From the NCBI RefSeq assembly GCF_000337575.1, contig NZ_AOIM01000015.1, forward strand, positions 54,794 through 94,933: a stretch of 40,140 bases of DNA, read 5' to 3'. A program made the translations under genes and the position numbers. Within the stretch, counting starts at the first letter, position 1; each line of letters begins with the position of its first letter. The notes beneath the pieces are model-generated. The model did not search any database and had not been told where the DNA came from. It saw nothing but the letters and a program-made list of their open reading frames with translations. This DNA comes from Natrialba hulunbeirensis JCM 10989. Its GTDB lineage: Archaea > Halobacteriota > Halobacteria > Halobacteriales > Natrialbaceae. This document shows, piece by piece, positions 2,172-17,447 of this stretch.

Positions 2172-3644
2172 TCATTCGTAGGAGTTCGGTTCAGTCGGCC
2201 CGCCCGTTCGCGGCGTTCCCTGGAGGATGCCGTAGAGTCCGGTCAGGGGTTCACCGACACGGATCCCGCTGCTCGCGATTTCGAACTCTCGGAGATTGTG
2301 CTCGAAACTCCCCGAACGCTTCTTGAGAACACCAACGACCTTCCGGAGGCTGCCGTCCATCTCGACGTAACTCAGGAACATGAGATTGTCCGCGACGTAG
2401 CTCAGATTGTTACTCGTCGCGTTCGAGATGCCCGTAATCTCCGAAATTTCGTTCGTGATCATCACTGTCACGCCCCGATTCTTGAGATAGCGGGTAAGCG
2501 CGTGAAGCTTTCGGACGAGCATGTCCTCGTTGCCCTGAATTGAGGTCGTGTAGCCGTCAAGTCCGTCGATCATCACGATATCCGTCTCCCGCTTGTCGAC
2601 CTCCTGTTTGACCATGTGCGCGAACTCTTCGCCTGAAAGTGTCCGCGGTTCGATTTCGGTAATCGACAGCGTCCCCTCCTCGCGCATCGACGTTACCGGC
2701 ATTCCGATCGCCTCGGAACGATGCTCGTAGGTCTCCATATCCTCCTCGAAGAGGTACACTGCCGATTTCATCCCGTTTTTCGCCGCCTGTGCGAGAAACT
2801 GCGTCCCCGTCGAGGTCTTGCCCGCTCCCGTCGGACCGCTGATGAACGTCACGGTGCGCTTATCGAAGCCGCCGCCGACGAGTTCGTCCAGCCCCTCGAT
2901 ACCGAACTCGAGTTGGATCGATTCGAACGGGTGCTCGTGGCGCTCAGGGACCAGTTGCGGGAAGATTTCGAGGCCGTTGCCACGGATCTCCATCCCGTGG
3001 TCACCCTCGCGCTGGCCGAGTGCACGATGCTTGGCGACCTTGATGCGGCGACCGCCGTCGCCGCGTGTGAGTTCGACGATGCCGTCGCTGAGCGAGCGGA
3101 TTTCGGTGTCGTACTCCTGGTCCGTGGAGGGCGTTGCGGTCGTGACGACGGTGATCTCACGCTGTTTGAGAAACCGCATGAACGCGAGGATCCGTTTTCG
3201 GAACTGGTAGTCGTTCGCCTCGACGTACCGTAGCTGGGTGATAGGGTCGACGACGACCCGGTCGGGGTCGATCTCCCGAATTGCGTCGTGGATGTCCTGC
3301 GTGTATCGATCCTGTTCGATATCGCTCGGGTCGACCAGATCGTAGGAGTAGTCTTCGGTGAAGAAATCCGAGTCCGGGCCGAGATCGAGAAATTCCGCGT
3401 CCGTGACGTCGATACCGACTGCATTGCCGTTCGCGATGATCTCCTCTTTCGACTCCTCGCCGTGGATGAACAGTACCGTCTCGTTGTTGTTCAGCCCCTC
3501 CTCGAGAAAGTGCATCCCGAGCAACGTCTTCCCGGTGCCGGGTTGGCCGTGAACGAGATACATTCGCCCCGGAACGAACCCGCCGTGTAGAATATCGTCG
3601 AGGCCATCGACCCCGCTACTCACCGGGGACGTTCGATGTTTCAT
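2172..3644 (-). CDS. KaiC-like double-domain RecA-superfamily ATPase
   Basis: A 490-residue protein with two tandem KaiC domains, the size and layout of cyanobacterial KaiC. Domain 1 has Walker A GQPGTGKT (33-40), the paired catalytic glutamates (EE, 63-64) and Walker B ending VVVD (about 130). Domain 2 has Walker A GPTGAGKT (270-277), an EE pair (300-301) and Walker B IVMIDGLDGY (about 356). KaiC proteins form ATPase hexamers and act as clocks or signalling switches. The CII autophosphorylation Ser-Thr pair of clock KaiC is not clearly matched; the corresponding stretch reads ISNATSNNLS, so autophosphorylation is unproven. No kaiA or kaiB is nearby. A histidine kinase follows about 300 bp downstream on the same strand, suggesting a KaiC-kinase signalling pair. 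The ATG at 3644 gives the expected N-terminus. Confidence 0.9.
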   Translation of the reverse strand: MKHRTSPVSSGVDGLDDILHGGFVPGRMYLVHGQPGTGKTLLGMHFLEEGLNNNETVLFIHGEESKEEIIANGNAVGIDVTDAEFLDLGPDSDFFTEDYSYDLVDPSDIEQDRYTQDIHDAIREIDPDRVVVDPITQLRYVEANDYQFRKRILAFMRFLKQREITVVTTATPSTDQEYDTEIRSLSDGIVELTRGDGGRRIKVAKHRALGQREGDHGMEIRGNGLEIFPQLVPERHEHPFESIQLEFGIEGLDELVGGGFDKRTVTFISGPTGAGKTSTGTQFLAQAAKNGMKSAVYLFEEDMETYEHRSEAIGMPVTSMREEGTLSITEIEPRTLSGEEFAHMVKQEVDKRETDIVMIDGLDGYTTSIQGNEDMLVRKLHALTRYLKNRGVTVMITNEISEITGISNATSNNLSYVADNLMFLSYVEMDGSLRKVVGVLKKRSGSFEHNLREFEIASSGIRVGEPLTGLYGILQGTPRTGGPTEPNSYE

Positions 3645-3797
3645 GTAGGGTTTGAAAGCACTTGAGTGCCATTAAGTAATCGCTTGCGGGTGAGGAAAGA
3701 ACTCGCGCTACACGATAGCGTCTACCTGCCGCTAACTGCCGTTTTGGGTGAGATCGATCACCACAGATCGACGACCAGCCAACAGGAGCCGCGGCGA

Positions 3798-4622
3798 TTA
3801 CAGCTCGTACGTTTCGCCGTCAAGTGCCAGCGGCTCCACAAACGCATCGTCCGCCGGATAAAAGTGTGCGATGTGGACCAGCCGCGTTTGCGTGGCACCG
3901 AGATCGTCCGCGAGCGCGAGTGCACCCTCGCGCGTCATGTGTTTGGTTCCGAAGGTCCGCGCTACTCCCTCCTCGTCCTCGTGTCTCCCCCCGATCGGAT
4001 GTGCATCACAGAGTTCCGCGGGAACAATGGCGTCCGCCAGCAGCAGATCAGGGTCGGCAAGCACCTCACGCGAAGCCTGCGGAATCGCATAGCTCGTATC
4101 ACCCGACAGCGAGAGCTTCGCCCCGGTTTCGGGATCCTCGATGGCGAGCCCGTAACAGACGAGCGGCGGATGGTCGACCGGGACGAGCGTCACGTCGAAC
4201 CCACAGATTCGCGTGGACTCGAGTGGCGTCGTCGGCTGGACGGTGACGGCGTCGAGGTAGTCGTAGTCGCCGGCGACGGTTTCGGCGACGCTTTCGCCGA
4301 TTTCGGGGTCGGTTTCGTCGGCGGCGTAGACATCAAGCGAGTCGAAGACGCGAAAAACGTTGCCGAGACCGTCGAGGTGGTCGAAGTGGATGTGGGAGAC
4401 GATAGCGGCGTCGGGGAGCGCGACCGACTCGCGCAGGAACTGGTACCGAAAGTCAGGGCTAAAGTCGACGAGCAGGGACTCGCCAGTGCGGTCGTTCTCG
4501 ACGTGGACCGAGAAGCGCGTGCGCTCGATGTCGCGCTCGCGGGCGGTTTCGCAGGTGTCACACTCACAGCCGACGGTGGGTGTGCCGGTCGTATCACCGG
4601 TGCCGAGGAGCGTTACGCGCAC
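3798..4622 (-). CDS. MBL-fold phosphodiesterase, PhnP-like
   Basis: A 274-residue metallo-beta-lactamase-fold hydrolase. The N-terminus (LLGTGDTTGTPTVGCECDTC) is the PhnP/coenzyme PQQ-B-type opening with the Cys-rich zinc site; the metal motif HIHFDH gives His77, His79, Asp81 and His82, and later GDT and VHIAHF segments supply further ligands. PhnP hydrolyses phosphoribosyl cyclic phosphate in phosphonate breakdown, and relatives cleave other cyclic phosphodiesters. No other phosphonate genes are near, so the substrate is open. The start is a GTG (4622). The gene stands alone with a 153-bp gap to the divergently unrelated KaiC-like gene's start side. Confidence 0.85.
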   Translation of the reverse strand: MRVTLLGTGDTTGTPTVGCECDTCETARERDIERTRFSVHVENDRTGESLLVDFSPDFRYQFLRESVALPDAAIVSHIHFDHLDGLGNVFRVFDSLDVYAADETDPEIGESVAETVAGDYDYLDAVTVQPTTPLESTRICGFDVTLVPVDHPPLVCYGLAIEDPETGAKLSLSGDTSYAIPQASREVLADPDLLLADAIVPAELCDAHPIGGRHEDEEGVARTFGTKHMTREGALALADDLGATQTRLVHIAHFYPADDAFVEPLALDGETYEL

Positions 4623-4697
4623 GGGGTGGTCACCATGGTTGGACTGTATCGCCCTGCTTCGGCCCGTCCCTGCTCACGGCCGATCGGTCGCCGCCGA

Positions 4698-5183
4698 TTA
4701 CACATACGTCTGCCCTTCCGCCAGCGCCTGCTGGATCAACGGATGATTCGGTTGCGATTCGAACCGCTTCGCTGGGATGACGTACACCGAGACGACGATG
4801 CCGTGCTCGATGCCGATCGAGTCGCCAAGCGACTCGAGTTGGCGCTCGATTTCGTCGTCGAGTGCGTCCTCAGCGAGACCGACCAGAAGTTCCACGGACG
4901 CGTGGGCAGGGCGGTCGTTCTGGACGGCGTCACCGAACGCGACGAGACGGTCGATCGCGTCGCCGTACTCGGTCTGTGCCTGGTGGGCGAACGCTGCAGC
5001 GGGGTCTGAGGGAGAACGAGAACTGGTACTGGTGTTCGTACTGGAACTGGTACCGGAACCAGAACCGGCCCCACTGTCGACTCTGCCATGATCCGAACCG
5101 CGACGTGTGTCTCGGTTCGTCTCGCGGTTGCTCCGACCGTCAGCGTCGTACTCTCGGTCGCCTGGTCGTAGCCCATCAGTCAT
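4698..5183 (-). CDS. Degenerate nucleotidyltransferase-like protein
   Basis: A 161-residue protein with a disordered Ser/Thr/Gly/Arg-rich N-terminus (to about residue 55) and a C-terminal domain that follows the polymerase-beta-type (MNT) nucleotidyltransferase pattern. In place of the usual GSxARG and DSDxDL motifs it has FGDAVQND and HASVELLV, so the metal-binding acidic pair is incomplete and catalysis is doubtful. The C-terminal half ends with a segment like those of short NTases (VIPAKRFES, then HPLIQQALAEG). The ATG at 5183 is preferred to one at 5204 because a TATA-like TTTATG sits 26 nt upstream of it, which fits a leaderless transcript. There is no HEPN partner gene beside it, so I do not call it an antitoxin. 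Confidence 0.65.
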   Translation of the reverse strand: MTDGLRPGDREYDADGRSNRETNRDTRRGSDHGRVDSGAGSGSGTSSSTNTSTSSRSPSDPAAAFAHQAQTEYGDAIDRLVAFGDAVQNDRPAHASVELLVGLAEDALDDEIERQLESLGDSIGIEHGIVVSVYVIPAKRFESQPNHPLIQQALAEGQTYV

Positions 5184-9813: not shown

Positions 9814-10275
9814 ATGTTCGACACGGTCGTCGTCGCCACGGACGGCTCCGACAGCGTCACCCGCGCCATCGACGTCGCACTCGACCTGGCCGACCGATTC
9901 GACGCCGAGGTCCACGCCCTCTCGGTCGTCGACGCCAGCGAGGTCGACGCCTCACCCCAACAGCTCCGCGAGGAACTGCGCACCGCACTCGAGACGACCG
10001 CCGACGCCGCGCTCGCCACCGTCGAGGATCGGACAGACAACGAGATTACGACTGCGGCGCGCGAGGGGCGTCCCGCGGCCGAAATCTGTGAGTACGCTCG
10101 CGAGGTCGACGCCGACCTCGTCGCGACCGGTACCCGCGGCCGCCACGGCGAGAACCGCCTGCTGCTCGGCAGTGTCGCCGAGCGTATCGTCCGCACCTCG
10201 CCCGTGCCGGTGCTGACTGTGCGCCAACTCGAGTCGATAGCTGAGAGCGGAGACGATGCGGCTGCCGTGGCCTAA
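9814..10275 (+). CDS. Universal stress protein (UspA family)
   Basis: A 153-residue UspA protein with the most canonical nucleotide site of the three in this region: GTRGRHGENRLLLGS near residues 106-120 matches GxxGx9G(S/T), followed by VAERIVRTSPVPVLTVR. The N-terminus MFDTVVVATDGSDSVTRAIDVAL is the standard first strand and helix. ATP binding and dimerisation are expected. It sits about 110 bp after the Lrp-type gene, separated by a short ACGAAC microsatellite (about 9725-9740). Confidence 0.9.
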   Translation: MFDTVVVATDGSDSVTRAIDVALDLADRFDAEVHALSVVDASEVDASPQQLREELRTALETTADAALATVEDRTDNEITTAAREGRPAAEICEYAREVDADLVATGTRGRHGENRLLLGSVAERIVRTSPVPVLTVRQLESIAESGDDAAAVA

Positions 10276-10426
10276 CAGCGGTTAGTAACATATATTGGTA
10301 TCTGAAATTATCTAGAAGTGAATCAGGTAGCCGATCACTGTACGTTCCAACCTTTTGCTCTGCGCTCCCTCGCTTCGCTCGGTCGCTCGGAAAAACGTCG
10401 ATAAAAAGCACTGTGTCACCCCCTCA

Positions 10427-10445
10427 GCCGCGCCGATGGCGCGGC
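10427..10445. repeat. Perfect GC-rich hairpin (8-bp stem, 3-nt loop)
   Basis: GCCGCGCC, loop GAT, GGCGCGGC, flanked by CCCTC on the left and GAGGG on the right that could extend the pairing. It lies in a non-coding 277-bp stretch between a UspA gene and the IS remnant, beside two CTCGCTTCGCTCGGTC-type segments common in haloarchaeal intergenic and mobile DNA. It could be a terminator or the foldback end of a decayed element. Confidence 0.6.
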
Positions 10446-10552
10446 TTCGAGGGATTCCTTGGCCCGCTCGCTCACTCCGTTCGCTCGCGGTGAGTGCACA
10501 CTTCTCCGCCTGTACTGACCGCGAGTTTCACGACTCACTCTGAACAAAACGA

Positions 10553-11017
10553 CTCTGGTGAATCGCATGACTGCGTAGACTTCGACCGGTAGAACTAGAG
10601 AGTTGAAGCGGGAGGCGAACCATTAGGTCACGCTGCGATGGACGCGACGTTTTCGACCGCGAAAACGTCAGCAAACACTACTGCCGTCGGACGGATTATC
10701 GCGTCCAGACGCTCAAAACAACCGCACTCGTCGATACAGCGTCATAGGCTATCCTCGACGTTCACTGCACGACCGAGAAACGTCACGATACGCAGATCGG
10801 CTGGCAACTCGCCCGCCATAACGCGGGCGAGTTGCACAGCCTCGCTGCGGACAAAGGCTACGACTAGAAGCACTTACGTGAAAAATAGAGGGAAGAGGGC
10901 GTGACATCGCTGATCAAGCATCGGGAGTTCCGTGAAATTGTCCTGATGTGTGTTGTCTACAACATCAAGCATGCCATCAGACAATGAAATCAATCGCCGT
11001 ATGGAGATTCACCACAG
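10553..11017 (+). mobile_element. Internally deleted IS5-type element remnant
   Basis: The left end CTCTGGTGAATCGCAT (10553-10568) and the reverse complement of the right end (11001-11017), CTGTGGTGAATCTCCAT, match over the first 12 bases at all but one position and so look like terminal inverted repeats. Between them lies a broken transposase. At 465 bp the element is much shorter than an intact IS5-family copy, which shows internal deletion. No convincing target-site duplication was identified. Confidence 0.7.
10605..10987 (+). pseudogene. IS5-family transposase pseudogene
   Basis: In one frame from about 10650 the translation reads FDRENVSKHYCRRTDYRV, then RVQTLKTTALVDT and DVHCTTEKRHDTQIGWQLAR, then LAADKGYD, the recognisable core of haloarchaeal IS5-group DDE transposases. 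It is interrupted by TAG stops at 10745, 10865 and 10886. A one-base loss in the T run at about 10650 shifts the frame from upstream HAAMDATF. The expected segment between KHREF and the C-terminal FREIVLMCVVYNIKHAIRQ is missing, so a large deletion removed the last catalytic region. The N-terminus is also absent. It cannot make an active enzyme. Confidence 0.82.
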
Positions 11018-11054
11018 CCAACGAGAGGTAACAAATTCGTCGATTTCACCTATC

Positions 11055-11507
11055 TCAGCGAACAGCGAGCAGTACCAGACCTACAACGGCGAGGAACAGA
11101 ACCACAAACACTAGACGCCAGCGGCCAACGGATGCGTGGTTTGCGGCACCGTGTTGGCGAAGTTCGTATGCGATCCAGGTTCCGACGACGATGGGAATCG
11201 CCCCGATGAACGCGAGAATCAGGACGACGAAATCGAGTCCGAACAGCGACGAGCCGACGATCCAGCCGGTTGCCAATCCCAGTAATCCTCCACCGAGCAG
11301 TGAGGCCGTAGTGATTGCCCGCGACAGGCCCAGTCCCGCGGTGGCAAGCGCCAGCGCGACGAGCCAGACCGCCACCAGCAGGTCGCCGAAACCCCGAAGC
11401 GGAGCAGCCGTCAGCGCGAACAACGACAACCCGGGAGCTATCGCACCGAAGAGGAAGGCTTCGCCGAAGGTGTACAGATCCGGCCTGTCGTCTTGTTCGT
11501 GTGTCAT
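11055..11507 (-). CDS. Multi-pass membrane protein of unknown function
   Basis: A 150-residue protein with about five hydrophobic helices: AFLFGAIAPGLSLFALTAA, LLVAVWLVALALATAGLGL, ASLLGGGLLGLATGWIVG, FVVLILAFIGAIPIVVGTW and LVFVVLFLAVVGLVLLAV. I see no catalytic motif. The ATG at 11507 (MTHEQDD) is preferred over 11591 because the added segment is AT-rich and would encode an unlikely leader. The AT-rich stretch 11515-11570 probably holds its promoter. It lies between the IS remnant and the Tat-exported gene. Confidence 0.7.
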   Translation of the reverse strand: MTHEQDDRPDLYTFGEAFLFGAIAPGLSLFALTAAPLRGFGDLLVAVWLVALALATAGLGLSRAITTASLLGGGLLGLATGWIVGSSLFGLDFVVLILAFIGAIPIVVGTWIAYELRQHGAANHASVGRWRLVFVVLFLAVVGLVLLAVR

Positions 11508-11741
11508 TTGTACACGGGTTGGTATGAATGAATATGATCTTTGTGTTATTATATTGCGTAGCTGTAAAAAGAAGGGGATGTTGTCGGACACTAGAACGTC
11601 CTCACGGCTAGATGGTCACGTACTCGAGTCAATCGAGGAGGTCGATCACCCGACGCTGTCTGTCGGATTAATCGGTGAGTACGCACGGAACGGCACGTCG
11701 TAGCCGAAGGCGCACGTTCGTTGCGACCGTCCGAGCGCAGC

Positions 11742-12665
11742 TCAGTAGTCGTCGAAGATATGGCTGACCCGGTTGTTGTGATCCAGCCCGACGTCGACAG
11801 TGGCTTCGTAGTGATCCGCAACGCCAGGAACGTCCTCCATAAACCGGTGTTCCGCATCAAGATACGACTGTGCGACGTGACCTAACCCGTCGCCGTGGAC
11901 CACCGCGCTATCTTCGTGTGCGGCGACGAGGACCCGTCCGTTGTCGTAGTTCCAGAGGCGGCCGTGCCACCTCCCCGCGAATCCCAACGGTCCCGAGGCG
12001 ACGGATGCTTCGTGCTGGGTGAAGTCGCCGTCGACCAGTAGATAACGGGCCGCGTCGGCTACGGTCGTCGTCCAGGCGGGATTTCGCCCCGACTTACACT
12101 CGTCTCTGATGTGACTGTCGAGGTCGTCCGCGTCACCGAACGAGATCAGGTTGATCGGACCGCTCTGTTCCCACAGCCCTTCGTCAGTGTTTCGAAAGTA
12201 GTACTTCGGAACTCCGTCCGGGTACGAAACGGTCGCCTGTGTACTCACGTCTGAACCGGTCGTCTCCGCGTCCTGAACCGGAATCCACTCCTCGGTCTTT
12301 CCCACGTACGAATCCCACGGTTTTCGCTCTACTTTCGTCGACTGCCGTTCCGGAAGCTCGTCTTCTTCTGGGTGAGTGCGTTCCTTGACTTCCGTCTGGT
12401 GGATCGCACCGATCCCGTACCGCCTGTTGAGTTCGGGGCTCTGTTTCGTGATTTCGTAAATTACTTCGTCGGGTTCGATCGTACGACGAATAATCTGCTG
12501 TCCCGTGACTCGGATATCCTCGCGGTCGACAGTGTCGTCCGCTCTAGCGCTACCGATGGTACCTACACCGGCGAGTGACACTACTGCTGTCAGCCCACCG
12601 ATGAACGATCGACGGGACGTGCTACGGATTCGGTCCGGACACCGATTCTTGGATTTTTTATCCAT
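11742..12665 (-). CDS. Tat-exported protein of unknown function
   Basis: A 307-residue protein with a twin-arginine signal peptide near residues 16-45 (SRRSFIGGLTAVVSLAGVG, cleavage probably after SARA). The mature part is about 260 residues, rich in Asp, Glu, Tyr and Trp, with one Cys in a short DECKSG segment and several His residues in the C-terminal half (VAAHEDSAVVHGDGLGHV, HNNRVSHIF). I do not recognise a family. The ATG at 12665 is preferred to the TTG one codon earlier because a TATA element lies 26-27 nt upstream. It is divergent from the cysteine-rich precursor gene at 12897, and shared export by Tat suggests the two may work together. Confidence 0.8.
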   Translation of the reverse strand: MDKKSKNRCPDRIRSTSRRSFIGGLTAVVSLAGVGTIGSARADDTVDREDIRVTGQQIIRRTIEPDEVIYEITKQSPELNRRYGIGAIHQTEVKERTHPEEDELPERQSTKVERKPWDSYVGKTEEWIPVQDAETTGSDVSTQATVSYPDGVPKYYFRNTDEGLWEQSGPINLISFGDADDLDSHIRDECKSGRNPAWTTTVADAARYLLVDGDFTQHEASVASGPLGFAGRWHGRLWNYDNGRVLVAAHEDSAVVHGDGLGHVAQSYLDAEHRFMEDVPGVADHYEATVDVGLDHNNRVSHIFDDY

Positions 12666-12688
12666 CAACCCTATTTACAAATACATAA

Positions 12689-12694
12689 TATAAA
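12689..12694 (-). promoter_or_regulatory. TATA element of the Tat-exported gene
   Basis: On the minus strand TTTATA is centred about 26 nt before the ATG at 12665, inside an AT-rich island (12660-12710) that stands out from the GC-rich surroundings. This fits a leaderless transcript. Confidence 0.6.
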
Positions 12695-12866
12695 TAATTT
12701 CCTAATATTGGGTTGCACTAATTCGAGTGATCGAGAAATATAGAACAGTGGCGCTACCCCCACTCTAGTCCACTTCATCCACGAGGCCGTAACCCGAAAC
12801 GGGAGCGAGACGAACGCTGAGAAGTAGTTGCATACCAACGACTAATTTATATTAGTGATTCGAAGG

Positions 12867-12872
12867 TTATAA
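12867..12872 (+). promoter_or_regulatory. TATA element of the cysteine-rich precursor gene
   Basis: TTATAA centred 27 nt upstream of the ATG at 12897, in an AT-rich stretch (12841-12896). The distance suits a leaderless mRNA starting at the start codon. Confidence 0.6.
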
Positions 12873-12896
12873 CTGCAATAAGTTAATATACAAATT

Positions 12897-13631
12897 ATGG
12901 ATGAACAAAGTGGAAGTAGTGAACCGACTGGGCGTACGCTCAGCCGCAGGACTGTACTCAAAACGATGACGACCTCTACAGCTGTTCTCGGAACGAGTAC
13001 GGCCGCTGTCGTAGCGGAGTCCGACCGGGACCAGACAGGTACCGGCAACGACGCGGCTGCCGTCGGACGGTACCGTGACGCCGAACGCTTCGCCGAGGCG
13101 CTCGAGTCGGAACGGAAGTTCCTGCAACTGCTCGTTGAGGAGGGTGTGCTCGAACACGCCGGAGACGAGTTGCTCGACGGCGACGTATCGCCGGCCCCCG
13201 CCGGAGCGGTCGACGGAGAGCTCGTCGGCACCGTCGACACGCGAGACGGCCCGGTCGTACAACTGAACGTGATCAAAGAAATCGACGACGGCGCGGTCAA
13301 CGTTGTCATCTATCCTGAATCCGACCGCACAGCTTACGCCACGGTTACGCGCGTACGCGACGACACAATAGCTATCTACCGCCGCGAGAGAGGAGCTCCT
13401 GATGGCGCTCTTGAGGTGCTCATCGACGATTACGGTCTCGACGATGAAACAGTCTCAACCCAGGACTGGCCGAACTTCTGTGACTCGTGTCCGGACGATG
13501 ATCGGTGCTGTGAGTGTCGTAAAACGTGTGTCAATGATTGCTGTCAGTCGAGTTGTACTCCCGTCTATGAGTATCGCTGTTTCTGTGGAATTCGGTGCCA
13601 CGATCCGAGGTGCTGGTCAGACTGTTACTGA
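12897..13631 (+). CDS. Tat-exported precursor with 14-cysteine C-terminal peptide (halocin-like candidate)
   Basis: A 244-residue protein in three parts. Residues about 14-42 are a Tat signal (LSRRTVLKTMTTSTAVLG). Residues about 55-185 are a soluble helical then beta-rich domain with no cysteine. The last about 54 residues, from FCDSCPDDDRCCEC to CWSDCY, hold 14 cysteines in paired and CC patterns. The architecture (Tat leader, immunity-like middle domain, compact Cys-rich C-terminal peptide) is that of halocin C8, whose precursor is cleaved outside the cell to give a 10-Cys peptide antibiotic while the rest gives immunity. The cysteine spacing here is different from halocin C8, so it would be a separate type. 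A metal-binding secreted protein is the main alternative. It sits in an AT-rich accessory island divergent from another Tat protein. Confidence 0.75.
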   Translation: MDEQSGSSEPTGRTLSRRTVLKTMTTSTAVLGTSTAAVVAESDRDQTGTGNDAAAVGRYRDAERFAEALESERKFLQLLVEEGVLEHAGDELLDGDVSPAPAGAVDGELVGTVDTRDGPVVQLNVIKEIDDGAVNVVIYPESDRTAYATVTRVRDDTIAIYRRERGAPDGALEVLIDDYGLDDETVSTQDWPNFCDSCPDDDRCCECRKTCVNDCCQSSCTPVYEYRCFCGIRCHDPRCWSDCY

Positions 13632-13936
13632 AACGGTCGATCGTACGGATCTACCGGAGACAAAAATTTCTCAAGATACCGATTTTGGCAAAAGATAGAA
13701 TGACAACACCCCGGTAGGTGCTTCAGCAGGTGCAAGTTTGCGTAGGAAGTAAGCACTTTACGGCGCTTAGACACGAAGTTCATAATTTAATAATTAACAA
13801 ATCCCAAGAATACCGGTAACTGCTTCACCTGTACTTGCCGCGGGTTTCGCCAATAACTCTGAAAGAAGAAATCCCATTACCAACCATAGCCACCCAAGAC
13901 CGGCGGTTACTTCCCGCCCGCTCACCCAGTACCGGT
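13632..13936. other. Non-coding gap after the cysteine-rich precursor gene
   Basis: About 300 bp, AT-richer than its surroundings at 13660-13690 and 13780-13800 (AATTTAATAATTAACAAAT). I see no ORF that can be supported, no RNA gene and no clear inverted repeat. It probably holds the terminator of the upstream gene and the promoter of the DHH-family gene. Confidence 0.5.
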
Positions 13937-15190
13937 ATGTTCGACGAACTCATCGACAGCGGCGAGCTCCCAATCGCTCGCAAGTCTGTCCTCCCGGGCA
14001 CCGGCTTCTTTCTCCCGGACGAACTCGAGGAGGACTTCGAAGACGAACAGACGCAGGCAGCACTCGAGGGCGCGGATGTCGCAGTCATCGCCGACCCCGA
14101 CGCGGACGGTCTCGCCTGCGTCGCACTGATTCGCGAGGCGTACGACGACGTGCAGGCGGTGCCGGAGCCGGACGACGACACGGACATCGAGGACGCCGAG
14201 GGAACCGAAGAAACCGAAGCAATCGCCGCCGGCAACAACGGCGACGACCCACTCGAGGAACCCGAGCCAACACCCCACTCCGTCGCGCTCGTCCCCGCCA
14301 GCCCGCACAACGTCGAGGACGCCCTCGCCCGCGTCGCCGAGTTCGGCGACGACGGCATCGACCTCTTCGTCTGTGACCTCTGTCCCGACCGCTACGAGTA
14401 CGTCGAGGACGAACTCGACGCCGCACTCGACACCGCCGACAGCGTCGCCTGGTACGACCACCACCAGTGGGGCGACGACGTCGCTGATGCGGTTCGCGAT
14501 GCCGGTGCTGAACTCGTCGTCGGCGACTCCGACGAAGAGTGCAGCGCCGATGTTGTCTACCGGTCACTCGAGTACGAGTTCGATTCGATGTACGAGGAGT
14601 TGGCTGCGGTCACCCGGGATCACGACCTCTGGCTGCGCGAGGATCCGCGTAGCGACGATTTAGCGGATTACGCCTACTGGACGGACCCCGCGGAGTACGT
14701 CGAGGTCGTTCGCGAGTACGGCGTCGATCTGCCCGAGTGGGCCGAGGAGTTCATCGCCGAGCGCCGGATCGAGAAGGAGCAGTTGATCGATCAGGCGATC
14801 GGTCGCGCGGAGTTCCGCGAGATCGGCGACTACACGGTGGGGATCACCTACGGTCGGTGTTCGCAGAACGAGGTGGCAGAGGCGATGCGCGAGGACGGTG
14901 CCGATGCCTCGGTGATCGTCAAGCCCGCTGGCTCGGCGTCGATTCGCGGCACGGACGAGTTCGACCGCTGTCACGAGGTCGCGGGGAAGGTAAACGGCGG
15001 CGGGCATCCGAAGGCGGCGGGCTGTAAGCCCGATATCTACAACGACATGCTCGACTACGCGAATCACTGGACTTCCCGCGGTGCGGTGACGAAGCAGGTA
15101 ATTCTCGATGCGTTCCGCGACGTAGTGGAATCCGCAGCCGAGGAAGCTGAAGCCGAAGAAAGCGATACCGACGCAAGCAGCGACGCCTGA
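13937..15190 (+). CDS. DHH/DHHA1-family phosphoesterase
   Basis: A 417-residue DHH-family protein. The N-terminal domain has the DPDADG metal motif (53-58), a second Asp in the FVCDLCP strand (about 147) and the signature DHH (174-176, YDHHQW). The C-terminal DHHA1 domain carries GGGHPKAAG for substrate binding. Family members are RecJ-like nucleases, nanoRNases or cyclic dinucleotide phosphodiesterases that use Mn2+ or Mg2+. The haloarchaeal protein has an acidic insertion (about 77-112) and an Asp/Glu-rich C-terminus. The ATG at 13937 is chosen over 13835 since the extra residues look non-coding. Nanorase-like or RecJ-like activity cannot be separated from sequence alone. Confidence 0.87.
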   Translation: MFDELIDSGELPIARKSVLPGTGFFLPDELEEDFEDEQTQAALEGADVAVIADPDADGLACVALIREAYDDVQAVPEPDDDTDIEDAEGTEETEAIAAGNNGDDPLEEPEPTPHSVALVPASPHNVEDALARVAEFGDDGIDLFVCDLCPDRYEYVEDELDAALDTADSVAWYDHHQWGDDVADAVRDAGAELVVGDSDEECSADVVYRSLEYEFDSMYEELAAVTRDHDLWLREDPRSDDLADYAYWTDPAEYVEVVREYGVDLPEWAEEFIAERRIEKEQLIDQAIGRAEFREIGDYTVGITYGRCSQNEVAEAMREDGADASVIVKPAGSASIRGTDEFDRCHEVAGKVNGGGHPKAAGCKPDIYNDMLDYANHWTSRGAVTKQVILDAFRDVVESAAEEAEAEESDTDASSDA

Positions 15191-16079: not shown

Positions 16080-17447
16080 ATGGCACTACTGGACGAGCTC
16101 TCGGGCTACGAGTTCGAGGACCTGATGGTGGACGTCTTTCGCCACCTTGGCTACGAGAACGTCCGCCAGTCGGCGCGCACGGCCGACGAGGGACGCGATA
16201 TTCTGATGGAGGAAGTCGCCGACGGCCGGCGGCGCGCGGTCGTCGTGGAGTGTAAACACACAGACACGGTCAGCCGCCCCGTCGTCCAGAAACTCCACTC
16301 CGCGGTGGCGACGTACGACTACGATGGTCCAAAGCGCGGGATGGTGGCAACGACCGGTCGGTTCACCGGGCCGGCCAGAGAGTACGCCGACGAACTCGGA
16401 ACCACCACCGACGGCGGCGTCGAACTCGTCGACGGCACCGACCTCCGCGAGATCGGCGATGAAATCGGGATGGACCTCTACAACGGGCGCATCGAGATTC
16501 TCTGTGAGGAGGCGCTCGCGCCAACTCACCCAACGGCCGGCCGCGACGCACCTGTCTTCGAGACGCTCCGAGACGTCAGAAACATCGACCCCGAAACGAT
16601 TCCGACACCCGAGACGAGCGTCGCGTTCGAGCCGATGGTCACCGTGAGTGCCAAAACGAGCGCGACCTTCGAAACCTCCGTTGGCGTCATCCACAGCCTA
16701 AACGAGACGACGGAGCTGGTGCTCCACGCCGGCGGCGACGAACCGCGCGTCGCACGCGGCGACCGGCGGGACCTGGTCACCGACCGAACTGCACCGCGGG
16801 TTTCCCTCAAGGAGCGGGAGACTGAACTCGAGTGCACGTTCGATGGACTCGAGTACACGCGCTTCGGTCGGACCGAAACGGCGTACAAAGAGTGGGCGAT
16901 CGACCGGCTTCGGCAGGTCCATACGACGACGGTTCACTACACGGGCGACAACAACGTCGACTACGAGAAGACGTGTACGCCGAACCAGTCTGACGTGTCG
17001 GTACGCTCGATCGACCCGGTCTACCTGCCGCGCGTTCGCTCGCGACTCGCACTCGGGGAGTACGAGTACCGCTACGTGTACGATGCAGCGGGCTCGTCGC
17101 GGGCAGTGGTTCGAAACGAGTTCCGCGAGTGTGTCCACTGCGAGACCGGCGGCGCTGACGGCTCGTACACCTACTGCGACAACTGCGGGAGCATCAACTG
17201 TGAGGCGCACACGAAGACGGAGCGACTCGAGGACGAGCCGGTCTGTACCGGCTGTGCAGTTACCGAACGGTTCGCGTTGAAGACGAAGTACTTCTACGAC
17301 GAGGAGAACCGGGAGGCGTTTCGCGCGGAGTACGAGGAGATGGCGCTGCACGAGAAGGCGATGGAGAACGTCCCACTCGCCGTCGGGAGCGTCCTCGCGC
17401 TGCTGTTCACGCTGTTCGTCGTTGCGAGTTCGGCTGGCGTATTCTAG
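16080..17447 (+). CDS. Mrr-type restriction endonuclease fused to zinc finger and C-terminal TM helix
   Basis: A 455-residue protein. Residues about 8-130 are an Mrr_cat domain of the PD-(D/E)xK superfamily: Asp40 (DEGRDI), Glu57 and Lys59 (VVECKH) and Gln70, with the YEFEDLMVDVFRHLGY helix in front. Mrr enzymes cleave modified DNA (type IV restriction). The middle (about 165-340) is a beta-rich region of unknown role. A zinc ribbon-like cluster follows with Cys351, Cys354, Cys366, Cys369, Cys374, Cys389 and Cys392. A single hydrophobic helix (about 431-451) ends the protein and should anchor it in the membrane. No methylase or specificity gene is adjacent, consistent with a stand-alone nuclease. 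Start ATG 16080. Confidence 0.85.
   Translation: MALLDELSGYEFEDLMVDVFRHLGYENVRQSARTADEGRDILMEEVADGRRRAVVVECKHTDTVSRPVVQKLHSAVATYDYDGPKRGMVATTGRFTGPAREYADELGTTTDGGVELVDGTDLREIGDEIGMDLYNGRIEILCEEALAPTHPTAGRDAPVFETLRDVRNIDPETIPTPETSVAFEPMVTVSAKTSATFETSVGVIHSLNETTELVLHAGGDEPRVARGDRRDLVTDRTAPRVSLKERETELECTFDGLEYTRFGRTETAYKEWAIDRLRQVHTTTVHYTGDNNVDYEKTCTPNQSDVSVRSIDPVYLPRVRSRLALGEYEYRYVYDAAGSSRAVVRNEFRECVHCETGGADGSYTYCDNCGSINCEAHTKTERLEDEPVCTGCAVTERFALKTKYFYDEENREAFRAEYEEMALHEKAMENVPLAVGSVLALLFTLFVVASSAGVF

Follow-up and report, generated by a model that had tools for sequence, protein, structure and literature searches.

In a 40,140-nucleotide stretch of the genome of Natrialba hulunbeirensis JCM 10989 (contig NZ_AOIM01000015.1; hereafter the window, to which all coordinates given without a locus number refer), we found a gene that may well encode the precursor of a secreted, cysteine-rich peptide antagonist, and beside it a second gene whose product is a candidate for protection of the producer. 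The best explanation of the locus as a whole is a released antagonistic cysteine-rich peptide with an immunity-type partner, and we put its probability at roughly 0.55. A wider proposal, to which we give slightly less than even odds, is that the precursor belongs to a large, unnamed haloarchaeal superfamily of modular disulphide mini-proteins on a shared carrier, in which one branch is prenylated on its C-terminal tryptophan by a ComQ/PalQ-like enzyme before export, as a first case in archaea; the window gene would then be a member that escapes prenylation and whose secreted partner confers immunity.

Results

The precursor gene (12897-13631, plus strand) starts with ATG and encodes a protein of 244 amino acids, in which a Tat signal, a middle domain and a cysteine-rich tail follow one another. 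The Tat signal region (12897-13019, plus strand) contains the motif SRRTVLK, with the two arginines at residues 17-18 (codons 12945-12950), and this RR motif was invariant across a 12-member alignment of the window protein and its relatives. The middle domain (residues about 49-178; 13041-13430, plus strand) is free of cysteine. The tail (residues 195-244; 13479-13628, plus strand) ends in CWSDCY and has cysteines at positions 195, 198, 204, 205, 207, 211, 215, 216, 220, 228, 230, 234, 239 and 243, that is, with the spacing C2C5CC1C3C3CC3C7C1C3C4C3C. The tail is conserved in two relatives (L065 and L067). There is no cysteine upstream of residue 195, and if the 14 residues were placed at random over the 203 positions that follow the signal, the last 50 would contain every one of them with a probability of about 6e-10. 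An earlier, sequence-only reading had described a Tat signal and 14 cysteines in the last 54 or so residues; both observations held, with exactly 14 cysteines counted, and the whole architecture that it outlined was found again in homologues from other genera. Because these homologues share the entire architecture, the open reading frame is not a chance reading. Its codon use is atypical, which fits an accessory gene, and for this reason it was overlooked by a simple codon-usage gene caller. The protein had no match in Pfam or NCBIfam or in searches of plasmids, phages and IMG/VR, and a genome-wide named search for it returned nothing.

The 231-bp intergenic stretch that separates the precursor gene from a divergent gene has a GC content of 38.5%, as against 61% for the window, and contains a TATA-like element, TTTATATTA (12846-12854, plus strand), about 45 bp upstream of the ATG. 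The AT-rich region and this putative element are compatible with a promoter of the precursor's own.

Both genes lie on a 3.5-kb accessory island (10341-13882) flanked by genes for UspA (9814-10275) and a DHH phosphoesterase (13937-15190). The island was missing from six congeners, which have retained the two flanking genes. In G002, G004 and G005 the homologous flanks are separated by just about 100-165 bp, and the remaining congeners have longer, unrelated stretches at this site, in which G001 and G003 carry different genes. In this genus, the interval from UspA to DHH (10275-13937) is an insertion hot spot whose gene content differs by species. The island also encodes a hydrophobic membrane protein of 150 amino acids (11055-11507, minus strand), which is unrelated to the small transmembrane protein of G388 and G027 described below. 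A Mrr-type restriction endonuclease-like protein is encoded near the island (16080-17447, plus strand; Pfam Mrr_cat, E = 4e-25), and a homologous DHH gene was seen in G277, close to a different precursor operon (L072).

A single-sequence search of the 392 genomes of the order returned two relatives with a similar tail, in G388 (L004/L065) and G027 (L002/L067), and several more proteins in which the Tat signal and middle domain were joined to other cysteine-rich tails. A profile (A2) built from 12 middle domains, with the window protein as one of its rows, matched 92 places in 44 of the 392 genomes, with up to eight per genome. Most of these places were fetched and the profile was iterated, giving 94 open reading frames and 89 members with a usable cysteine-rich tail, one relative (L210) having been added in. 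The window middle domain matched A2, which includes the window protein itself, at E = 1.5e-34 and a profile of all members at E = 2.8e-19. The roughly 90 members are built from a Tat signal, a folded domain of about 100 amino acids nearly without cysteine, and a C-terminal cysteine-rich tail. Seven profile matches (L159, L140, L116, L144, L145, L147 and L156) lacked a proper tail of this kind or looked frame-shifted or truncated, L144 and L147 having merely 3-4 tail cysteines. The family carries no name in Pfam or NCBIfam, and a PDB sequence search with the middle domain gave no match. Literature searches for cysteine-rich peptides secreted by haloarchaea turned up nothing relevant, a result that does not extend to the archaeal antimicrobial peptides surveyed by Makarova and co-workers (mBio, 2019).

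The number of tail cysteines ranged from 4 to 22, and the 89 tails had 76 spacing patterns. One middle domain is thus paired with many different cysteine-rich tails, which is the outcome that the sequence-only reading had expected of a toxin-immunity precursor family. The cysteine number was even in 88 of the 89 tails, including the 14 of the window protein, and the exception (L146) has one additional cysteine in its middle domain, making eight in total. Among other genes of the same loci with at least 6 cysteines, 29 had an even and 24 an odd number. On a tree of middle domains (91 rows), the cysteine number changed at least 44 times and parity only once, which would have a chance of about 3e-12 if parity were free; many forks of this tree are poorly supported, so that the number of changes is approximate. 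Since the number is even and parity was kept while the number changed, the tails are very likely disulphide mini-proteins. Gain and loss of cysteines in pairs suits disulphide-bonded secreted mini-proteins, which need pairs, whereas metal clusters do not; the strong constraint on parity across the family therefore favours disulphides rather than metal, and extends what had earlier been read from the even number in the window tail alone.

An AlphaFold2 model made with 50 aligned members placed four helices and six strands in the middle domain, with pLDDT values mostly above 90. In the model the tail stood apart from this domain, at pLDDT below 50 and without a resolved fold. Foldseek against PDB gave no solved relative of the precursor (best E 0.36). 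Shortly before the first tail cysteine, 9 of 88 pre-tail stretches contained V[ST][TI]Q, compared with 0.07 expected, and four halocin-C8-type precursors (L121, L131, L132 and L134) also have the motif ahead of their tails. Judging from this enrichment, the motif is a likely processing junction; in the window precursor it takes the form VSTQ (residues 186-189; 13452-13463, plus strand), shortly before the tail.

In close pairs of members, tail identity was usually equal to or higher than middle-domain identity, as in L158/L155 (93% in the tail, 79% in the middle domain). Exceptions were the L064 tandem pair, with 61% identity in the middle domain and 10% at non-cysteine tail positions, and L061/L062. 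Within the window's own trio, identity is 29% in the middle domain, and the window tail is 50-57% identical to those of its two nearest relatives. These comparisons indicate that the tail is the conserved working part inside a subtype and is swapped or remodelled between subtypes. Because the tail is conserved within subtypes as much as, or more than, the middle domain, it does not diverge fast in the manner of a toxin. Hypervariable, diversifying tails were ruled out for close pairs, in which tail conservation equals or exceeds that of the middle domain. A tail that does not vary relative to the middle domain had been named beforehand as evidence against a microhalocin; tails did differ between subtypes, but in the window's own subtype the tail was the more conserved part. 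The tails are acidic on average, as is the remainder of the protein.

The divergent gene (11742-12668, minus strand) encodes a Tat-exported protein of about 307 amino acids, a candidate immunity or processing protein that we call the partner. Its invariant His, Asp, Glu and Asn residues, among them H235, H251, D253, H258 and D296, suggest a metal site or an enzyme. The partner family had no match in Pfam, and Foldseek against PDB gave no fold match for the partner (best E 0.024). Each of the three genomes with a window-type tail has a partner gene within about 5 kb of the precursor gene, despite the 29% identity of the middle domains. The early hunch that this neighbour has to do with the precursor thus gained weight, as the linkage is kept in three genera. 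The two genes are divergent in the window's genome (G000) and in G388, and stand on the same strand in G027, with the partner past a transposase-like gene. In the congener G001, a distant partner homologue is divergent from a different cysteine-rich Tat precursor with 10 tail cysteines (L182, L210). The G388 partner is accompanied by a small transmembrane protein and a winged-helix regulator. This small transmembrane protein is linked to precursors in both G388 and G027 and was not found in the window's genome.

A winged-helix regulator (HVO_A0261_N), the small transmembrane protein and the Tat partner also occur together in G044 (L194, 6041-7985, minus strand), with no precursor nearby and a weak match (E = 0.018) elsewhere in that genome. 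If the partner genes conferred immunity, non-producers would be expected to carry them in this way, without a precursor. The partner family was found in 60 of the 392 genomes, and since no precursor was found beside the partner homologue in most of them, the partner may serve another role. We found no immunity partner common to the whole precursor family. Immunity is a tentative assignment for the partner, with odds somewhat below even.

In other subtypes, an ABC-2 ATPase gene lies directly downstream of the precursor, in an apparent operon, at two loci of one genome (L070, 5527-6492, plus strand; L072), and at L072 it is joined by a permease gene (both at 3067-4796, minus strand). Tandem precursor copies were present in L063, L064, L087 and L098. 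Five precursors lie near tatC (L097, L098, L100, L111 and L115), five near secDF (L061, L062, L071, L080 and L084) and two near aglB (L063 and L073), as checked with Pfam on representatives only. Such positions near export or glycosylation genes may be shared chromosomal positions.

Five precursor loci (L063, L066, L073, L109 and L120) contain an isoprenyl-synthase-like gene, and all seven precursors in them end in Trp (one in Trp-Leu). The enzyme matched nonaprenyl diphosphate synthase weakly but significantly (E = 1.8e-6) and had no match in Pfam. Its DDxxD motif is invariant, and its second motif is degenerate and preceded by an invariant Gln. A blind search with the enzyme returned six further strong loci (L226-L231), and in L230 and L231 a family precursor adjoins the enzyme gene, with the C-termini GVGW and GGGGW. 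Thus a C-terminal Trp was present in 9 of 9 precursors beside a prenyltransferase-like gene (one as Trp-Leu; seven loci) compared with 0 of 82 others, and on the tree this association involves at least five changes. The prenyltransferase-like genes of L226, L227, L228 and L229 (in G053, G236, G129 and G355, respectively) had no cysteine-rich precursor within the surrounding 7-15 kb, the one in G355 being on a short contig. The window's genome has no prenyltransferase-like gene, and the window tail lacks a terminal Trp. All trans-IDS-like prenyltransferases characterised so far act on Trp, PalQ requires a terminal Trp, and a Gln ahead of the second motif recognises the indole in these enzymes (review PMC13290415). 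The features of the Trp-terminal branch suggest tryptophan prenylation of the ComQ/PalQ type in archaea.

The sequence-only reading had taken the window precursor to reproduce the architecture of halocin C8 precursors. The order of parts is indeed the same, but homology was not supported. The halocin C8 domain model (TIGR04449, halocin_C8_dom) matched 29 of 195 genomes from the order but had no match in the window's genome, nor in any of 12 family members. By hmmsearch, the middle domain had no similarity to the HalI-like N-domains of ProC8-type precursors, and hhalign gave a probability of 0.3%. The absence of TIGR04449 and the unrelated middle domain in the profile comparison ruled out halocin C8 homology.

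Discussion

We propose that the window gene encodes a Tat-exported precursor whose cysteine-free middle domain would carry a 50-residue C-terminal mini-protein with seven disulphides. The ProC8 N-domain is reported to keep halocin C8 folded and inactive inside the producer, and by analogy the middle domain may hold the tail in the same state. Outside the cell, an extracellular serine protease would cut off the tail near VSTQ, and the freed tail would antagonise related haloarchaea. The partner would protect the producer by acting on the peptide outside the cell, either binding it or inactivating it, as its linkage, the precursor-less partners and the invariant His and Asp residues suggest. Release by an extracellular protease is plausible by comparison with haloarchaea in which secreted antagonist precursors activated by proteolysis have been documented (PMC12893001). 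We give an antagonistic action of the tail a little better than an even chance.

Release of an antagonistic peptide is supported at the level of the protein by the combination of one middle domain with many tails, cysteine parity, the two-domain AlphaFold2 model and the junction motif. At the level of the locus, it is supported by the empty sites in congeners, partner linkage, the precursor-less G044 cassette, operons with ABC-2 transporters of exporter or immunity type, and tandem arrays with diverged tails. Against it stands the evolution of the tail, which inside subtypes is as slow as or slower than that of the middle domain, unlike many fast-evolving toxins. The acidic character of the tails, the lack of one immunity partner for the whole family, the many partner homologues with no precursor beside them, the poorly modelled tail and the missing fold matches for both proteins also count against it.

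The strongest rivals are signalling and an uncleaved role at the cell surface, both of which we consider unlikely. If the tails were secreted signalling peptides (pheromones), one branch would bear a prenylated C-terminal Trp as in ComX/ComQ, and the window protein would be an unprenylated relative that tells kin about density. The Trp terminus of all nine prenyltransferase-adjacent precursors has a pheromone precedent in ComQ, which produces a quorum-sensing pheromone (PMC13290415). Conservation of the tail inside subtypes would suit a receptor-bound ligand, and the HTH gene adjoining the G388 precursor would fit regulation. However, no histidine kinase or other receptor recurred in the neighbourhoods examined, and the window's genome is without a prenyltransferase-like gene. 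Bacteriocins are the more typical setting for tandem copies whose tails differ, for ABC-2 transporters, for a sporadic location on islands and for precursor-less partners.

A secreted protein that remains uncleaved and has a structural, adhesive or metal-binding function at the cell surface would account for the fusion of tail and middle domain in every case, and for loci that adjoin conserved export genes (tatC, secDF, aglB) and not toxin-type genes. Metal binding agrees poorly with the even parity through 44 changes, which favours disulphides over metal clusters, and the patchy distribution and island location speak against housekeeping at the surface. We give this explanation about the same small share as signalling.

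Far less probable is a role of the disulphide-rich tail in inhibiting extracellular proteases, whether the cell's own halolysins or those of competitors. Short, protease-resistant disulphide folds are common among protease inhibitors. Haloarchaea do secrete active serine proteases (PMC12893001), but the neighbourhoods examined had no link to protease genes, and no sequence match to a known inhibitor family was found. Least probable of all is that the protein is a genuine halocin C8 family member with additional cysteines. The order of parts and the V[ST][TI]Q junction shared with the four halocin-C8-type precursors would speak for this reading, which conflicts with the missing TIGR04449 match, the hhalign result and a different cysteine spacing.

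We know of few archaeal peptide antagonists at the gene level. A family of some 90 detected precursors, spread over 44 of the 392 genomes sampled, with a conserved carrier domain, tails held by 2-11 bridges and partner genes that can be recognised, would make haloarchaeal chemical warfare or signalling searchable and testable. It also prompts one to ask how so many disulphides are formed in archaea, whether ahead of Tat export or following it. To our knowledge, there was no earlier candidate for peptide tryptophan prenylation in archaea, and the Trp branch would be the first.

Comparison with known systems

The Trp branch, as distinct from the window gene, resembles ComX/ComQ and PalQ in that a peptide with a C-terminal Trp is encoded next to a trans-isoprenyl-synthase-like enzyme. 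The first Asp-rich motif of this enzyme is intact, and the second is degenerate and preceded by an invariant Gln. Unlike in those systems, the precursors of the branch are archaeal, cysteine-rich and Tat-exported, the modification is predicted only, and the enzyme lies outside Pfam.

HmHapP of Haloferax mediterranei (HFX_0892), like the window precursor, is a secreted haloarchaeal precursor with a proposed proteolytic release of an antagonistic peptide. Its active part is N-terminal and helical, with cysteine unmentioned (PMC12893001), whereas the presumed effector of the window precursor is the C-terminal cysteine-rich part.

The closest parallel in design is ProC8. Like it, the window precursor has a Tat signal, a folded domain and then a C-terminal cysteine-rich peptide with an even number of cysteines, and V[ST][TI]Q-type junctions occur in some members of both groups. 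We take L124 to contain the authentic HalC8 sequence. Neither domain of the window precursor is detectably homologous to its counterpart in ProC8. The window tail has 14 cysteines with CC and CXC spacing and is acidic and hydrophilic, whereas HalC8 is a hydrophobic peptide of 76 amino acids with 10 cysteines. A single gene reportedly confers both halocin C8 production and immunity, as the title of Sun 2005 (cited in PMC12893001) has it, whereas a separate Tat-exported partner gene stands beside the window precursor. As far as sequence can tell, the likeness to halocin C8 lies in design and not in descent, and by this analogy the window precursor most likely works like the halocin C8 precursor.
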